Source: Aggregicoccus sp. 17bor-14
GTDB lineage: Bacteria > Myxococcota > Myxococcia > Myxococcales > Myxococcaceae
DNA length: 64,000 nt
NCBI RefSeq assembly: GCF_009659535.1
Contig: NZ_VJZZ01000007.1
Coordinates: 310,001 to 374,000 of the forward strand
Direction: 5' to 3'
Shown here: positions 14,276-21,143 of the stretch, one piece after another
Position numbering within the stretch: the stretch's first letter is position 1
Layout of the letters: each line of letters begins with the position of its first letter
Notes under the pieces: generated by a model
The model's input: the letters and a program-made list of their open reading frames with translations, nothing else
What the model was told of the DNA's origin: nothing
Database searches by the model: none
Made by a program: the position numbers and the translations under genes

Positions 14276-15445
14276 TCAGCGCACGACGGGGAGGGGGAAG
14301 CGGTCGGGGCGCAGGTCCGGGCGCGGGCCCACCTGGCCCTGGACCTCGGCGGCGCCCAGGCCCTCGCGCTGGGCGCGGAAGGTGGCCTGCGGGTCTCTCG
14401 CGCTCGCCTTGCCCGCGTAGAAGATGCCGTAGCGCATCCCGAGCGAGCCGAGCTGCGTGAGCACGCTCGCGGCAACGCGCTTCGCACGTGTGCGGCCGGG
14501 CAGCAGCGAGAGCGCGAGCCCCGCCGCGGTGCACGCCTTCGCCGCGCGCCACAGCGCTCCGCCCACGCCCGCATGCAGGTGCTTGGACACGGACTCGGAG
14601 CGAGCGGCCTCGCGCTCCACCGCGTACGTCGCCGCGAGCGCTGCCGCGCTCCCCACGGTGCCGTAGAGGTGCAGCGCGCGCCCCTCCGCGCGCGTGCCCG
14701 GCAGCAGCGAGAGCAGCGACGCGGCGCTCGCCACGCCTGCGCTCATGAAGAGCAGGGGCAGGCCGAAGCGGGTGCCCTGCCACACCGGCACCGCGGTGTT
14801 CGCGAGCAGCACCGCGGTGTAGCCCGCGAGCGGCAGGCCGAGCACCCCTCCCACCACGCTCGCCGCGTCGCCGCTGCGGCCGAGGACGCCGCCCTCGAAG
14901 CCGCTCGTCACGGCGGCGAGCCCGTTGGCCGCGCCCGACACCGAGAGCACCCAGGAGCCCATGCTCATGGGCGAGCTGGGGCGAAAGACGCGCATCATGT
15001 TGAGGAAGCGCTCGGGCCGCCCGAGGTCCGTGATGAGCAGCACCGCGCTCACGGCGTCTCCCACCGCGCCCGTCCAGCGGGTGCGCGCGCGGAGCCGGCG
15101 GAAGCGGCGGCCCCCCGCCAGCTCCGCCGAGACGCCGAGCACGCTCGCGGCGCCCGCGAGCCCGCCCACGTGGAAGTAGAGCGGGATGGTCCAGATCCAC
15201 ACCGTCTCCTTGATGACCGGCAGCCCGTAGTAGCTGGGGTGCAGCGGGTCCGCCGTCTCCGCGCGAGAGGCGATCGCGTGCTCCGTCTTGCGCCGCTCGC
15301 GCCGCGGCTCGGGGGCCCCGCGCACGCGCTGCTGCGCGCCCTCGCCCTCGAGCAGCCCCAGCGCGGGCTCGATGTTGCGCCCGTCTCCCGTGCGCTCCAT
15401 GCGCTCGAGCAGCGTGCTCTTCCCTTGCTCCGAGTCCTCGCGCAT
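14276..15445 (-). CDS. NrfD-family membrane subunit of formate dehydrogenase
   Basis: The 389-residue protein has a ~90-residue polar N-terminus and then about eight hydrophobic helices with NrfD features (HPSYYGLPVIKETVWIW, LITDLGRPERFLNMMRVF, SPMSMGSWVL). NrfD subunits anchor molybdopterin/Fe-S oxidoreductases and exchange electrons with quinone without heme. It begins five bases after the stop of the ferredoxin-like subunit gene, so it takes the place of the cytochrome b556 (FdnI) of the E. coli complex. The start is the only ATG placed between the two genes with a GAGGG upstream. Confidence 0.85.
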   Translation of the reverse strand: MREDSEQGKSTLLERMERTGDGRNIEPALGLLEGEGAQQRVRGAPEPRRERRKTEHAIASRAETADPLHPSYYGLPVIKETVWIWTIPLYFHVGGLAGAASVLGVSAELAGGRRFRRLRARTRWTGAVGDAVSAVLLITDLGRPERFLNMMRVFRPSSPMSMGSWVLSVSGAANGLAAVTSGFEGGVLGRSGDAASVVGGVLGLPLAGYTAVLLANTAVPVWQGTRFGLPLLFMSAGVASAASLLSLLPGTRAEGRALHLYGTVGSAAALAATYAVEREAARSESVSKHLHAGVGGALWRAAKACTAAGLALSLLPGRTRAKRVAASVLTQLGSLGMRYGIFYAGKASARDPQATFRAQREGLGAAEVQGQVGPRPDLRPDRFPLPVVR

Positions 15446-15450
15446 GTCCC

Positions 15451-16281
15451 TCACCGCCCCGCCCCGCGCCCGAAGAGCACCGCGCCCAGCGCGAGCGCCA
15501 CCATGCCCAGGGAGCCCCAGCCCACCTGGCGCCAGGCCTGGTGCCCCTTCACGGTGGGCACGACGGGGTCGGGCGGCAGGTTGTAGACCTCGGGCTTGTC
15601 CACCAGCAGGAAGAAGGCGTTGAGGCCGCCGGTGCCCGGCTGGCTCTCGGCGTCCGCGCCGTAGAGGTACGCGTCGCTCACGCCCAGCTCGTGCAGGCGC
15701 TCGAGCCGCACCTTCGCGCGCTCCTTGAGCTCGTCCAGGTCCCCGAACTGGATGGACTCGGTGGGGCAGTGCTTCGCGCACGCGGGCGTCATGTCGTCGC
15801 CGAGGCGGTCGTAGCAGAGGGTGCACTTCCAGGCCCGGCCGTCGTCCTCGCGCCGCTCCACCACGCCGAAGGGGCAGGCCGTGACGCAGTAGCCGCAGCC
15901 GTTGCACACGTCCGGCTGGATGTAGACCGAGTCGAACTCGGTGCGGATGATGGCGCCGGTGGGGCAGGCCTCGAGGCAGCCCGCGCGCTGGCAGTGCTTG
16001 CACACGTCGCTCGCCATCAGCCAGCTGAAGGAGGCGGGCAGGGCGGTGTTCACGCCCGGGGTGGGCACGGGGCGCTGCGGCCCGCTGTCTGCCGAGCGCT
16101 CCACGAACGCCACGTGGCGCCAGGTGCTCGCGCCCAGGTGTCCCGTGTTGTCGTAGGACATCCCGGTGAAGTTGAAGCCGTCATCGGGGAGCTGGTTCCA
16201 CTGCTTGCACGCGACCTCGCAGGCCTTGCAGCCGATGCAGAGCGTGGTGTCGGTGAAGAAGCCCTTCTGACCTTGACCCAT
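15451..16281 (-). CDS. fdhB: Formate dehydrogenase iron-sulfur (beta) subunit
   Basis: The 276-residue protein carries four [4Fe-4S] Cys sets: CIGCKACEVAC (15-25), CKHCQRAGCLEAC, CNGCGYCVTAC with CP after it, and CTLCYDRLGDDMTPAC. This matches FdnH-type four-cluster ferredoxin subunits that wire the catalytic subunit to the membrane partner. A single C-terminal helix (GSLGMVALALGAVLF) would fix it in the membrane. There is no Tat or Sec signal. It lies seven bases after the catalytic-subunit gene and five before the NrfD gene. Confidence 0.93.
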   Translation of the reverse strand: MGQGQKGFFTDTTLCIGCKACEVACKQWNQLPDDGFNFTGMSYDNTGHLGASTWRHVAFVERSADSGPQRPVPTPGVNTALPASFSWLMASDVCKHCQRAGCLEACPTGAIIRTEFDSVYIQPDVCNGCGYCVTACPFGVVERREDDGRAWKCTLCYDRLGDDMTPACAKHCPTESIQFGDLDELKERAKVRLERLHELGVSDAYLYGADAESQPGTGGLNAFFLLVDKPEVYNLPPDPVVPTVKGHQAWRQVGWGSLGMVALALGAVLFGRGAGR

Positions 16282-16288
16282 GGCGTGG

Positions 16289-19200
16289 CTACTCCCGTGG
16301 CTCCTGCTGCGGCTGCGCTGCGGCGTGGGCCGCGCCCCGGTCCGGGATGCGGGTGTGGGCGGGCAGCTCCGGAGCGCGCTCCCAGCTGAAGGCTTTGCTT
16401 GCGCGGCTGCGCCGGCCGGCGGTGATGTTGCCGGTGAAGGCCTTGGACTCCTGGATGGTGACGTTGGGGTCCGCGACGTACACGGTGAGATCGTTGGTGC
16501 TGTCGCCCTGCACGCGCCCCACCGCGCCCCAGTGGTAGGGCAGGCCAATCTGGTGCACCCACTGGCCGCGGATGCGCAGCGGGCGCATCCGCTCGGTGAC
16601 GAGCACGCGCGCTTCGATCTCCGCGCGCGCGGTGGCGATGGTGGCCCAGCCGCCATTCACCAGGCCGCGCTCCTTCGCGAGCTCGGGGGACACCTCGCAG
16701 AACATCTCGGGCTGCAGCTCGCTCAGCCAGCTGAGCCAGCGGCTCATGCCGCCCGCCGTGTGGTGCTCGGTGAGCCGGTAGGTGGTGAGCAGGTAGGGGT
16801 AGCGCGGGTCGCCCCAGGCGAGGTGGTAGGGGTTGTCCCTGCGGCGCCACTCGCGGCGCGCCGGGTTGCACTGCTGGCGCGGGTAGAGCGCGTTGGGGAC
16901 CACGGACTCCTGCGGCTCGTAGTGCGTGGGCAGGGGCCCGTCGAGGATGCCCGAGGGCGCGAAGAGCCAGCCCTTGCCGTCCGCCTGCATCAGGAAGGGG
17001 TCGATGCCCGAGAGGCTCGCGGTGCCCGTGGCGCCCTTCGGCGGGCGGTAGGAGGGCGGGCGGTCCTTGATGAAGTCGGGCACGTCGTGGCCCGTCCACT
17101 GGGCCTTCTCGGCGTCCCACCACACGTACGCCTTGCGCGCGCTCCAGGGCCGGCCCTCGGGGTCCGCGGAGGCGCGGTTGTAGAGCAGGCGGCGGTTGGC
17201 GGGCCACGCCCAGCCCCACTCGGGGGCGACCCAGCTCTGCTCCTGGCCAGGCTTGCGGCGCGCGGGCTGGTTCACCCCGTCCGCGTAGCAGCCCGAGTAG
17301 ATCCAGCAGCCGCACGCGGTGGAGCCGTCGTCCTTCAGCTGCGCGAAGCCGGGCACGGGCTTTCCGTCGTGCACGGTGTAGCCGTTGATCTCCTTCAGCA
17401 CGGCCTCCGCGTCCGGCTCCCCGCGCGGGCCGTGCATGGGGTAGTCCCACTTCAGGTCCAGCAGCGGGCGGTCCTTCGGGTCGGTGGAGCCCGCGTACAG
17501 GCGCTTGAGGCGGCGGCCGAGGTGGAACATGAAGTGCAGCTCGCTGCGCGCATCGCCCGGCGCCTCCACCGCCTTCTCGCGCCACTGCAGCAGGCGCTGG
17601 GTGTTGGTGAAGGTGCCCTCCTTCTCGGTGTGCGCGGCGGCCGGGAAGACGAAGACCTCGGTCTGGATGTCCTCGGCGCGCACCTCGCCGCGCTCGTGCT
17701 CGGGGCTGCGGCGCCAGAACTCCGCCGTCTCGATGAGCGTCAGGTCGCGCACCACCAGCCACTCGAGCTTGCGCAACCCCTTGCGCTCGAGCGTGCCCTG
17801 GAAGGAGCCCACCGTGGGGTTCTCGCCCATCACGAAGTAGCCCTTCACCTTGCCGTCCGCCATGTCCGTGACCGTGGTCATGTGCGAGTGGTCGCCGGTG
17901 AGGCGCGGCAGGTAGTTGAAGCGGTAGTCGTTCTCCGGCTGCGCGGCGTCGCCGAAGTACGCCTTGAGCAGCGAGACCATGTACTTGGGCAGCTCGCTCC
18001 ACCACCCGGTCGCGCTCTGGTGCGCGTGGAGGTAGGCCTTGAGCGTGTCCGGCTGCCCCGCGCTGGGCATGGAGAGGTAGCCGGGCAGGATGTTGTAGAG
18101 CGTGGGGATGTCGCTCGAGCCCTGGATGGAGGCGTGGCCGCGCATCGCGAAGATGCCGCCGCCGGGCCGCCCGATGTTGCCGAGCAGCAGCTGCAGGATG
18201 GCCGCGGTGCGGATGTACTGCACGCCGATGGAGTGCTGAGTCCAGCCCACCGCGTAGACGAAGGCGCTGGTGCGCTCGCGGCCGGAGTTCTGGCACAGGG
18301 CCTCGGCCACCTCGAGGAACTGCGCCTCGGGGACGCCGCAGATCTCCTCCACGATGGCGGGCGTGTAGCGCGCGTAGTGCTTGCGCAGCAGCTGGTACAC
18401 GCAGCGCGGGTGCTGCAGCGTCTCGTCGCGCAGGTGCTCGGTGGCCAGGGTGCGCTTCGTGTCGTCCGCGCCCGCGCCCTGCTCGGCGAAGAGCTGCTTC
18501 TGGCCGGCCGCCGGCACCGTGCCCTCGAGCCCCTCGTACTGCCAGCTGCGGATGTCGTACTTGCCCTCGCCGTGGAAGCCGCTGAAGAGCCCCTCCAGGT
18601 CCTCCGTGTCACGGAAGTCCTCGCGGATGACGCTGGCCGCGTTGGTGTAGCTCACCACGTAGTCGCGGAAGACCTTGTCGTTCTCCAGCACGTAGCGCAC
18701 GAGCCCGCCGAGGAAGGCCACGTCCGTGCCTGCGCGGATGGGAACGAAGGAGTCCGCCATCGCGCTGGTGCGGGTGAAGCGCGGGTCCACGTGGATGACC
18801 TTCGCGCCCCGCGCCTTCGCCTCCATCACCCACTGGAACCCCACCGGATGGCACTCGGCCATGTTGGAGCCCTGGATGACGATGCAGTCCGCGTTCTGCA
18901 GGTCCTGCTGGAAGTCGGTGGCGCCGCCTCTACCGAAGGAGATGCCCAGACCGGGCACCGTGGAGCTGTGTCATATGCGCGCCTGGTTCTCGACCTGGAC
19001 GACGCCCAGCGCGGTGAACAGCTTCTTGATGAGGTAGTTCTCCTCGTTGTCCAGCGTCGCGCCGCCCAGGTGCGCGAGGCCCAGCGTGCGGCGCACGGAC
19101 TCGCCCGAGGGGGAGTTCTCCTCCCACGTCTCGTCGCGCACGCGCTTCACGCGCTCGGCCACCATGTCCATGGCGCGCTCCAGCGGGAGCGTCTCCCACT

Positions 19201-19540
19201 CGAGCCCGCCGGGCCGCCGGTAGAGCACCTGCTGCAGGCGGTGCGTGCCGGTGACGAGCTGGAAGCTCGCTGCGCCCTTGGGGCAGAGCCGGCCGCGCGA
19301 GATGGGGCTGTCCGGGTCACCCTCGATGTCGAGGATCTTCTCGTCCTTCACGTACACGCGCTGCCCGCAGCCCACCGCGCAGTAGGGGCAGATGGACTTC
19401 GCAACCCGGTCGGCGCGCCGCGTGCGCGGGTGCAGCGCGTGGGTGCGGGCGCTCTTCGCGCTCTCGCCGAGCCCTGCGGGGTCGCGGTCGCGCAGCTGCC
19501 GCACCACGGGCCAGCGCGACAACAGATCCTTGAGCTTCAT
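16289..19540 (-). CDS. fdhA: Selenocysteine-containing formate dehydrogenase alpha subunit
   Basis: One frame of 1,084 codons is interrupted by a single in-frame TGA at 18973-18971, codon 190. Flanks read NQARI-U-HSSTVPGLG, matching E. coli FdnG/FdhF around their selenocysteine. A SECIS hairpin follows at the canonical distance. The start ATG 19540 has GGAGGAG upstream. Residues C51, C54, C58 and C86 bind the [4Fe-4S] cluster; molybdopterin domains follow (GRGGATDF, GSNMAECHPVGF), with a dinucleotide-binding domain near the C-terminus. It oxidises formate to CO2 at a Mo/W-bis-MGD centre. There is no twin-arginine signal at the N-terminus, so unlike FdnG it probably works on the cytoplasmic side. 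It heads a tight three-gene operon with the Fe-S and NrfD subunits. A pipeline would wrongly split it into two genes or call a pseudogene. Confidence 0.95.
18943..18973 (-). other. Bacterial SECIS element and UGA-Sec codon
   Basis: On the minus strand the TGA (18973-18971) is followed after exactly 18 bases by the pentaloop GGTCT (18952-18948), closed by a perfect 5-bp stem TGCCC/GGGCA (18957-18953 with 18947-18943). E. coli fdhF has the same loop GGUCU at the same 18-base distance after its UGA, where SelB binds. The coding sequence is thus constrained twice here, as protein and as RNA. Confidence 0.92.
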
Positions 19541-19635
19541 GCGGGGCTCCTCCCGAGACGGCCTCCCGGGAGGATTGGGACTGCGGGACCGGGGGGCAGG
19601 AGGGGGGAGCACGGTTGCCTGGTGGGAGACCAGGC

Positions 19636-19750: not shown

Positions 19751-20275
19751 CTACGACTCGAGCCCCACCGCTGCGGCGTGGATGACCGACGCGATTCGCA
19801 CCGCGTCGTGCACCTGGTCCTCGGTCAGGCCGCCGTCGATGACGACCTTCTCGTGGCTCTGCACGCACATCTCGCAGCCGTTGATGGCGCTGACCGCGAG
19901 GCAGACCAGCTCGAAGTCCACCTTGTTGGTCTGCACCTGCGCCATGCGGTTCATCCGCAGGCCGGGCCGCTTGGTGGAGTAGCTCTCCTTCCCCACCATG
20001 TGGCGGAACCGGTAGTAGATGTTGTTCATCCCCATGAGGGACGCGGCAGCGCGCGCGTCCTCGAGGACCGGCTCGGCATTGGGCAGCGCCTTCTTCGCCT
20101 CCTCGAGGATCGCCTCCTTCAGGCGCTCGTTGCGGGCGGCGTAGGCGCACGCGACCGCCACGCCCCAGCGCTGCTCGGGCGTGAGGCTGTTGCTCTCGAT
20201 GACGCTGGAGAGGTTGAGCCGCGTGTCCTTGTGGGCGTCCGCGAGCGAGCCGCGGATCTCTTCGAGCGAGGCCAT
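19751..20275 (-). CDS. ahpD: Alkyl hydroperoxide reductase AhpD
   Basis: The 174-residue protein is a full-length AhpD of the carboxymuconolactone decarboxylase fold. The active-site set is present: C134-E-M-C137 with H141 (CEMCVQSHE). In mycobacteria AhpD reduces AhpC, drawing electrons from a lipoylated dihydrolipoamide acyltransferase and lipoamide dehydrogenase. It begins six bases after the ahpC stop, and no AhpF gene is nearby, which fits that scheme. A strong terminator follows. Confidence 0.95.
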   Translation of the reverse strand: MASLEEIRGSLADAHKDTRLNLSSVIESNSLTPEQRWGVAVACAYAARNERLKEAILEEAKKALPNAEPVLEDARAAASLMGMNNIYYRFRHMVGKESYSTKRPGLRMNRMAQVQTNKVDFELVCLAVSAINGCEMCVQSHEKVVIDGGLTEDQVHDAVRIASVIHAAAVGLES

Positions 20276-20281
20276 GGTTCC

Positions 20282-20836
20282 TTACCCCGCCTTCGCGAGC
20301 TTCTGGGTGAGGGTCTCCTGACCCTTCTCCCAGTTGCAGGGGCAGAGCTCGTCGGTCTGGAGCGCGTCCAGGGTGCGCACGGTCTCGGAGATGTTGCGGC
20401 CCGCGCTCAGGTCGTTCACGGTCACGTGGCGGATGATGTTGTCCGGGTCCACGATGAAGGTGGCGCGCAGCGCGACGCCCTCCTCCTTGTGCAGCACGCC
20501 CATGGCGCTGGAGATCTCGCGCTTGATGTCCGCGAGCATCGGGAAGGGGAGGTTCTTCAGGTCCGCGTGGTGGGTGCGCCACGCGTGGTGCACGAACTCA
20601 GAGTCGGTGGACACGCCGAGGACCTGCGCGTCGCGGTCCTGGAAGTCCTTGTTCTTGCGGCCGAACTCCGCGATCTCGGTCGGGCAGATGAAGGTGAAGT
20701 CCTTCGGCCAGAAGAAGATGACCTTCCACTTGCCCTTGTAGTCCTTGTCCGTGATGTCCTGGAACTCCTTGCCCTTCTCCATGGACACGACGGCCTTGAC
20801 CTTGAACTCGGGGATCTTGTCGCCAACGGTAAGCAT
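20282..20836 (-). CDS. ahpC: Peroxiredoxin AhpC (AhpD-dependent type)
   Basis: The 184-residue 2-Cys peroxiredoxin has the peroxidatic Cys at 51 (FTFICPTE) and a C-terminal DELCPCNW motif with C165 and C167. The extra Cys pair matches mycobacterial AhpC, which is recycled by AhpD, rather than the AhpF-linked enterobacterial type. It reduces hydrogen peroxide, organic peroxides and peroxynitrite in the cytoplasm. ATG 20836 has AAGGAG nine bases upstream; the frame is open further upstream but without homology. It is first in the ahpC-ahpD operon and diverges from a sigma54 activator gene. Confidence 0.95.
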   Translation of the reverse strand: MLTVGDKIPEFKVKAVVSMEKGKEFQDITDKDYKGKWKVIFFWPKDFTFICPTEIAEFGRKNKDFQDRDAQVLGVSTDSEFVHHAWRTHHADLKNLPFPMLADIKREISSAMGVLHKEEGVALRATFIVDPDNIIRHVTVNDLSAGRNISETVRTLDALQTDELCPCNWEKGQETLTQKLAKAG

Positions 20837-21143
20837 CTGGATGTGCTCCTTGGGGGGTTGAGGCCGGCCCCTTTCCACGTGTCTGGGACCAGTCCGGGTT
20901 GAGTGGCTTCTTGTCAGCACCCACCGGTCAGTGCCACCGGGAAGTGCGGCTTGTGTTGAGGACTGCGACTGCAGACGGCAACGGAGGTTCACTTAAGCAG
21001 CAGCCATGCCACATGGGCCGCTGCCGTGATTCCAGGGGCTTATGAAACCGGCTCCCTGGGGTGCCGCCGACGTCTCGGTAGATAACGAAATGTCGGTGTG
21101 AGGCGCCACTGCAATCTCGGTGTTTCCACGCTAGAGAAGACGC
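20837..21143. promoter_or_regulatory. Divergent ahpC / sigma54-activator intergenic region
   Basis: This 307-bp gap separates ahpC (leftward) from the activator (rightward) and must hold both promoters. It contains an AT-richer stretch (GTAGATAACGAAATGTC near 21078-21094). I looked for a TGGCAC-N5-TTGC sigma54 promoter on both strands and found no convincing match, nor a clear OxyR or palindromic operator. Confidence 0.4.

Follow-up and report, generated by a model that had tools for sequence, protein, structure and literature searches.

The gene at 16289-19540 on the minus strand of the window, the 64,000-nucleotide stretch of DNA analysed here, is interrupted by an in-frame UGA, and the question is whether this codon terminates translation or is decoded as selenocysteine (Sec). 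The gene, denoted fdhA, almost certainly codes for a bacterial selenoprotein, the catalytic (alpha) subunit of a molybdenum- or tungsten-dependent formate dehydrogenase (FDH), in which UGA codon 190 would be read as Sec. A gene of this kind, with Sec encoded by UGA, is well supported here and represents a known type; what is gained is, in the first place, a corrected annotation for a gene that is divided into two ORFs by standard gene finders.

An in-frame UGA in a formate dehydrogenase gene

When TGA is read as Sec, positions 16289-19540 form a single open frame of 1084 codons, from an ATG start to a TAG stop, that encodes 1083 amino acids and contains exactly one internal TGA, codon 190 (18971..18973, minus strand), identified by translation and by alignment with homologues. 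Downstream of this codon, 893 conserved codons follow without a stop. Under the standard code the same gene breaks into two ORFs (18971-19612 and 16289-18958), as was anticipated in the first-pass annotation, according to which automatic annotation would split the gene.

The product matches the NCBIfam model NF041513 (formate_DH_Act) with 1890.6 bits over 1044 residues (cut-off 1400) and also TIGR01553 (993 bits, cut-off 814), and contains the molybdopterin oxidoreductase domains PF04879, PF00384 and PF01568. Its best solved relative is E. coli FDH-N (1kqf_A), and its similarity in sequence to FDHs of solved structure settles the predicted fold. The UGA aligns with the Sec codons of E. coli FdnG and D. 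gigas FDH; the UGA codons of E. coli, read directly from the genes, are codon 196 in both fdnG and fdoG and codon 140 in fdhF. The earlier assignment of the TGA to the codon at which FdnG and FdhF of E. coli have Sec is thus borne out by the single open frame and the alignment with the Sec of FdnG.

The codon is a TGA in all 28 Myxococcaceae-like copies of the gene, including a second copy in the source genome; the proteins are 71-76% identical to the window protein where identity was measured. Eighty further homologues were compared, from named genomes of Myxococcus, Anaeromyxobacter, Acidobacteria, Citrifermentans, many Actinomycetota, Dormiibacterota and others. Among these, the corresponding codon is TGA in 61, TAG in 7 and TGC (Cys) in 12, so that the residue aligned with 190 would be either Sec or Cys, as expected for a bacterial selenoprotein. 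The seven TAG copies all belong to Blastococcus, Geodermatophilus or Modestobacter (loci L083, L094, L097, L102, L105, L109 and L117). The presence of UGA, UAG and UGC at one and the same codon amounts to a natural experiment that isolates the RNA features which track Sec decoding.

The second copy in the source genome belongs to another Sec-type FDH operon (contig C24:67208-70405; locus L052:5149-8421, minus strand), where homologues of the beta and NrfD genes adjoin it; the two proteins are 76% identical. The 47 bases 3′ of the UGA are identical in the two copies, down to a rare AGA codon.

The SECIS hairpin and the selenocysteine machinery

Downstream of the UGA, folding and comparison identify the apical hairpin of a bacterial SECIS (18941..18959, minus strand; GGUGCCC-GGUCU-GGGCAUC), with a five-nucleotide GGUCU loop (18948-18952) that begins 18 nt after the UGA. 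The seven-base-pair stem has a folding energy of -11.1 kcal/mol, and in loop, stem length, spacing and energy the hairpin lies within the published bSECIS constraints as far as these are quoted in PMC13188914. The first-pass annotation had described a GGUCU loop on a perfect stem, placed 18 bases on as in fdhF: loop and spacing stand, but the stem is not perfect, one of its seven pairs being G-U.

Taken as a single sequence, the hairpin is modest evidence. Stems of this kind easily form by chance because the coding sequence is GC-rich: when the same peptide is recoded synonymously with the codon usage of the gene itself, 12.5% of the recodings form all seven pairs, although only 0.4% combine them with the GGUCU loop. 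The 81-nt region surrounding the hairpin shows no extra folding stability over shuffled sequences (z 0.61). With this z value and a chance stem in 12.5% of recodings, single-sequence folding was rejected as proof of a SECIS.

It is the comparison across relatives that provides strong support for the predicted hairpin. All 96 Sec copies retain at least six of the seven stem pairs together with an [AG]GU[CU]U loop. The pair +15/+27, both bases of which are third codon positions, occurs among the Sec copies as C-G, G-C, U-A and, in a few cases, G-U. In the 56 distinct Sec rows, 94% of the stem positions are paired, compared to a mean of 87% and a maximum of 90% after shuffling (a procedure that ignores relatedness). 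By contrast, 11 of the 12 Cys copies form only 3-5 stem pairs and GGUCU is found in only 2 of the 12. Codons +3 to +10 are highly conserved, with a mean entropy of 0.16 against 0.64 elsewhere, but this measure does not single out the hairpin by itself, since a few other stretches of the gene reach the same level. In the wider set, conservation does not extend to the outermost pair (+12/+30), leaving a core of six pairs.

The earlier designation of the element as a canonical SECIS therefore holds in part: loop sequence and spacing are those of E. coli, but other expected features are missing. The bulged U of the E. coli type is absent, U +14 being paired with A +28 (U-A in 52 and U-G in 4 of the 56 distinct Sec rows), and no conserved lower stem is detectable under the hairpin across the compared copies. 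The Rfam model SECIS_3 (RF01989) finds the right place (18914-18976) with only 22.4 bits, below the gathering threshold of 63.

The source genome (6.9 Mb, 99.95% complete) was searched for the genes required for Sec incorporation, which the first-pass annotation had predicted to lie elsewhere in the genome, naming the absence of selB and selC as the outcome that would speak against it. All four genes are present: one tRNA-Sec with the anticodon UCA (75.1 bits), SelA (567.1 bits), SelB (326.9 bits) and SelD (382.5 bits). SelB was detected in 65 of 76 genomes of the bacterial family. The SelD gene of the source genome (locus L049, contig C4:375067-375993) contains an in-frame UGA of its own (HCAG-U-AAK) and is itself predicted to encode a selenoprotein; across the family, both UGA and Cys forms of SelD occur. 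This Myxococcaceae-like bacterium thus combines two Sec-type FDH operons with a Sec-type SelD. A search of the open literature yielded nothing useful on selenoproteins in Myxococcus or in myxobacteria with FDH.

With this set of components, SelA and SelD would produce Sec-tRNA-Sec(UCA), which SelB would bind together with the GGUCU hairpin 18 nt past the UGA and carry to the ribosome, competing there with release factor 2. The incorporated Sec would then ligate the metal.

Two other explanations of the UGA have to be weighed. Were it a real stop, arising from a nonsense mutation or a sequencing error, the locus would be a pseudogene or a split gene, which is what the two separate ORFs called under the standard code look like. 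This is extremely improbable given that the TGA is shared by all of the family copies including the paralogue in the same genome, that the long stop-free continuation of the frame is itself conserved, and that the codon sits at a known Sec position in a genome with the complete Sec machinery. Low-level misreading of UGA is general in bacteria, and the codon could accordingly be read through independently of SelB, with a near-cognate tRNA inserting a standard amino acid such as Trp or Cys. Such readthrough is very unlikely, given that the hairpin is maintained with compensatory synonymous changes in the Sec copies and lost in the Cys copies. The hairpin is also retained in the Geodermatophilaceae copies in which the codon is UAG, and Sec encoded by UAG, with a tRNA-Sec(CUA), is already known in this family (Mukai et al., 2016, to the extent that it is cited in PMC5330540).

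Decoding of the UGA as Sec is favored despite the Rfam score, the shuffles of the 81-nt region and the lack of a bulged U because the comparative evidence outweighs these. The earlier interpretation, that frame, homology and RNA element agree on Sec, is strengthened by the machinery genes, the invariant UGA in the Myxococcaceae-like copies and the Cys homologues devoid of the hairpin.

The codon preceding the Sec codon

The codon immediately 5′ of the Sec codon is ATA (18974..18976, minus strand), an uncommon codon in this gene family: in the Myxococcaceae-like copies it accounts for 0.8% of the Ile codons, and yet it occupies this position in all 28 of them. Among the Sec copies as a whole, the preceding codon is ATA, ATT, GTT or CTT in 92 of 96, whereas the 12 Cys copies all have GTC or GTG there (none A/U-ending); the background in these GC-rich genes is 6-8% of codons ending in A or T. 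The difference persists after thinning at 85% protein identity, with an A/U-ending preceding codon in 54 of 58 Sec and 0 of 8 Cys copies. Four of five Sec-type SelD genes have GGT at this position, though the same codon is found there in three SelD genes of the Cys type as well.

Slow decoding ahead of the UGA and weakened termination are both possible reasons for the bias. It is conceivable, albeit rather doubtful, that the Sec signal of this FDH family includes an A/U-ending, slowly decoded preceding codon (AUA, AUU or GUU), which selection would favor in GC-rich genomes because it makes the ribosome pause or weakens termination. Such a codon is not universal, because the FDH genes of E. coli have GTC before the UGA. 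A limited literature search found no description of a preceding-codon signal; this observation and that on the Tat signal (see below) are worth a modest note.

The operon and its relation to known formate dehydrogenases

Two further genes follow fdhA on the minus strand. The first, fdhB (15451..16281), encodes a 4Fe-4S electron-transfer (beta) subunit, for which a single helix is predicted, hydrophobic and at the C-terminus (residues 252-271); its match to TIGR01582 reaches 177 bits, below the cut-off of 335. The second (14277..15400, with further in-frame starts upstream) encodes an NrfD-type membrane subunit (PF03916, E 1.7e-12), probably a quinone-reactive membrane anchor. The arrangement recurs in relatives, with beta homologues in 72 and NrfD homologues in 69 of 81 homologous loci. 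The natural reading of this three-gene operon is a membrane-bound formate:quinone oxidoreductase, in which electrons from formate would pass through the iron-sulphur centers of the beta subunit to the NrfD-type subunit and from there, probably, to the quinone pool. The FDH operon is immediately preceded by a gene for an AhpD-family alkylhydroperoxidase (19751-20275, minus strand; TIGR00777), and beyond it, on the same strand, a gene for an AhpC-type peroxiredoxin was recognized by eye (approximately 20282-20850).

The N-terminus of the alpha subunit bears on the topology of the putative complex. A simple motif scan found neither a twin-arginine motif nor a strong hydrophobic stretch in any of the 75 homologues with a readable N-terminus (some start codons being uncertain); in place of these, an RWPLLRQL-like motif is conserved in the N-terminal region of the window fdhA family. 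Enzymes of the FdnG type have a Tat signal, and it is present in the FdnG-type copies from the same bacterial family (loci L045 and L053). The lack of a Tat signal across the fdhA family raises a testable question, namely on which side of the membrane formate would be oxidized.

A similar gene set has recently been described in Rhodococcus equi as a membrane-bound FDH (PMC13332983). Common to both are the alpha subunit, an FdnH-like 4Fe-4S beta subunit and an NrfD gene, and judging by its length and gene set the R. equi protein appears to be of the NF041513 type. For the R. equi alpha subunit, too, predictors call no Tat signal; its authors argue for a degenerate one (PMC13332983), a proposal that finds no support in the wider comparison of predicted N-termini. 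The R. equi paper makes no mention of Sec, whereas the enzyme described here would be a Sec-type one, present in two copies in a Myxococcaceae-like genome.

FDH-N and FDH-O of E. coli (FdnGHI and FdoGHI) share with this enzyme a homologous alpha subunit, an aligned Sec, the predicted Sec-dependent decoding and the register of the loop. The gamma subunit of FDH-N, FdnI, is a cytochrome b, whereas the membrane subunit encoded here is NrfD-type rather than a cytochrome b. E. coli FdnG, furthermore, is a periplasmic protein with a Tat signal (PMC13332983), in contrast to the alpha subunit described here, which is devoid of the Tat motif. As in the SECIS of E. coli fdhF, the GGUCU loop starts exactly 18 nt past the UGA, but here it caps a continuous stem of 7 bp. 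Finally, the UAG-Sec formate dehydrogenases of Geodermatophilaceae have both the enzyme family and the hairpin in common with fdhA, and differ from it in the codon itself, UAG in theirs and UGA here.
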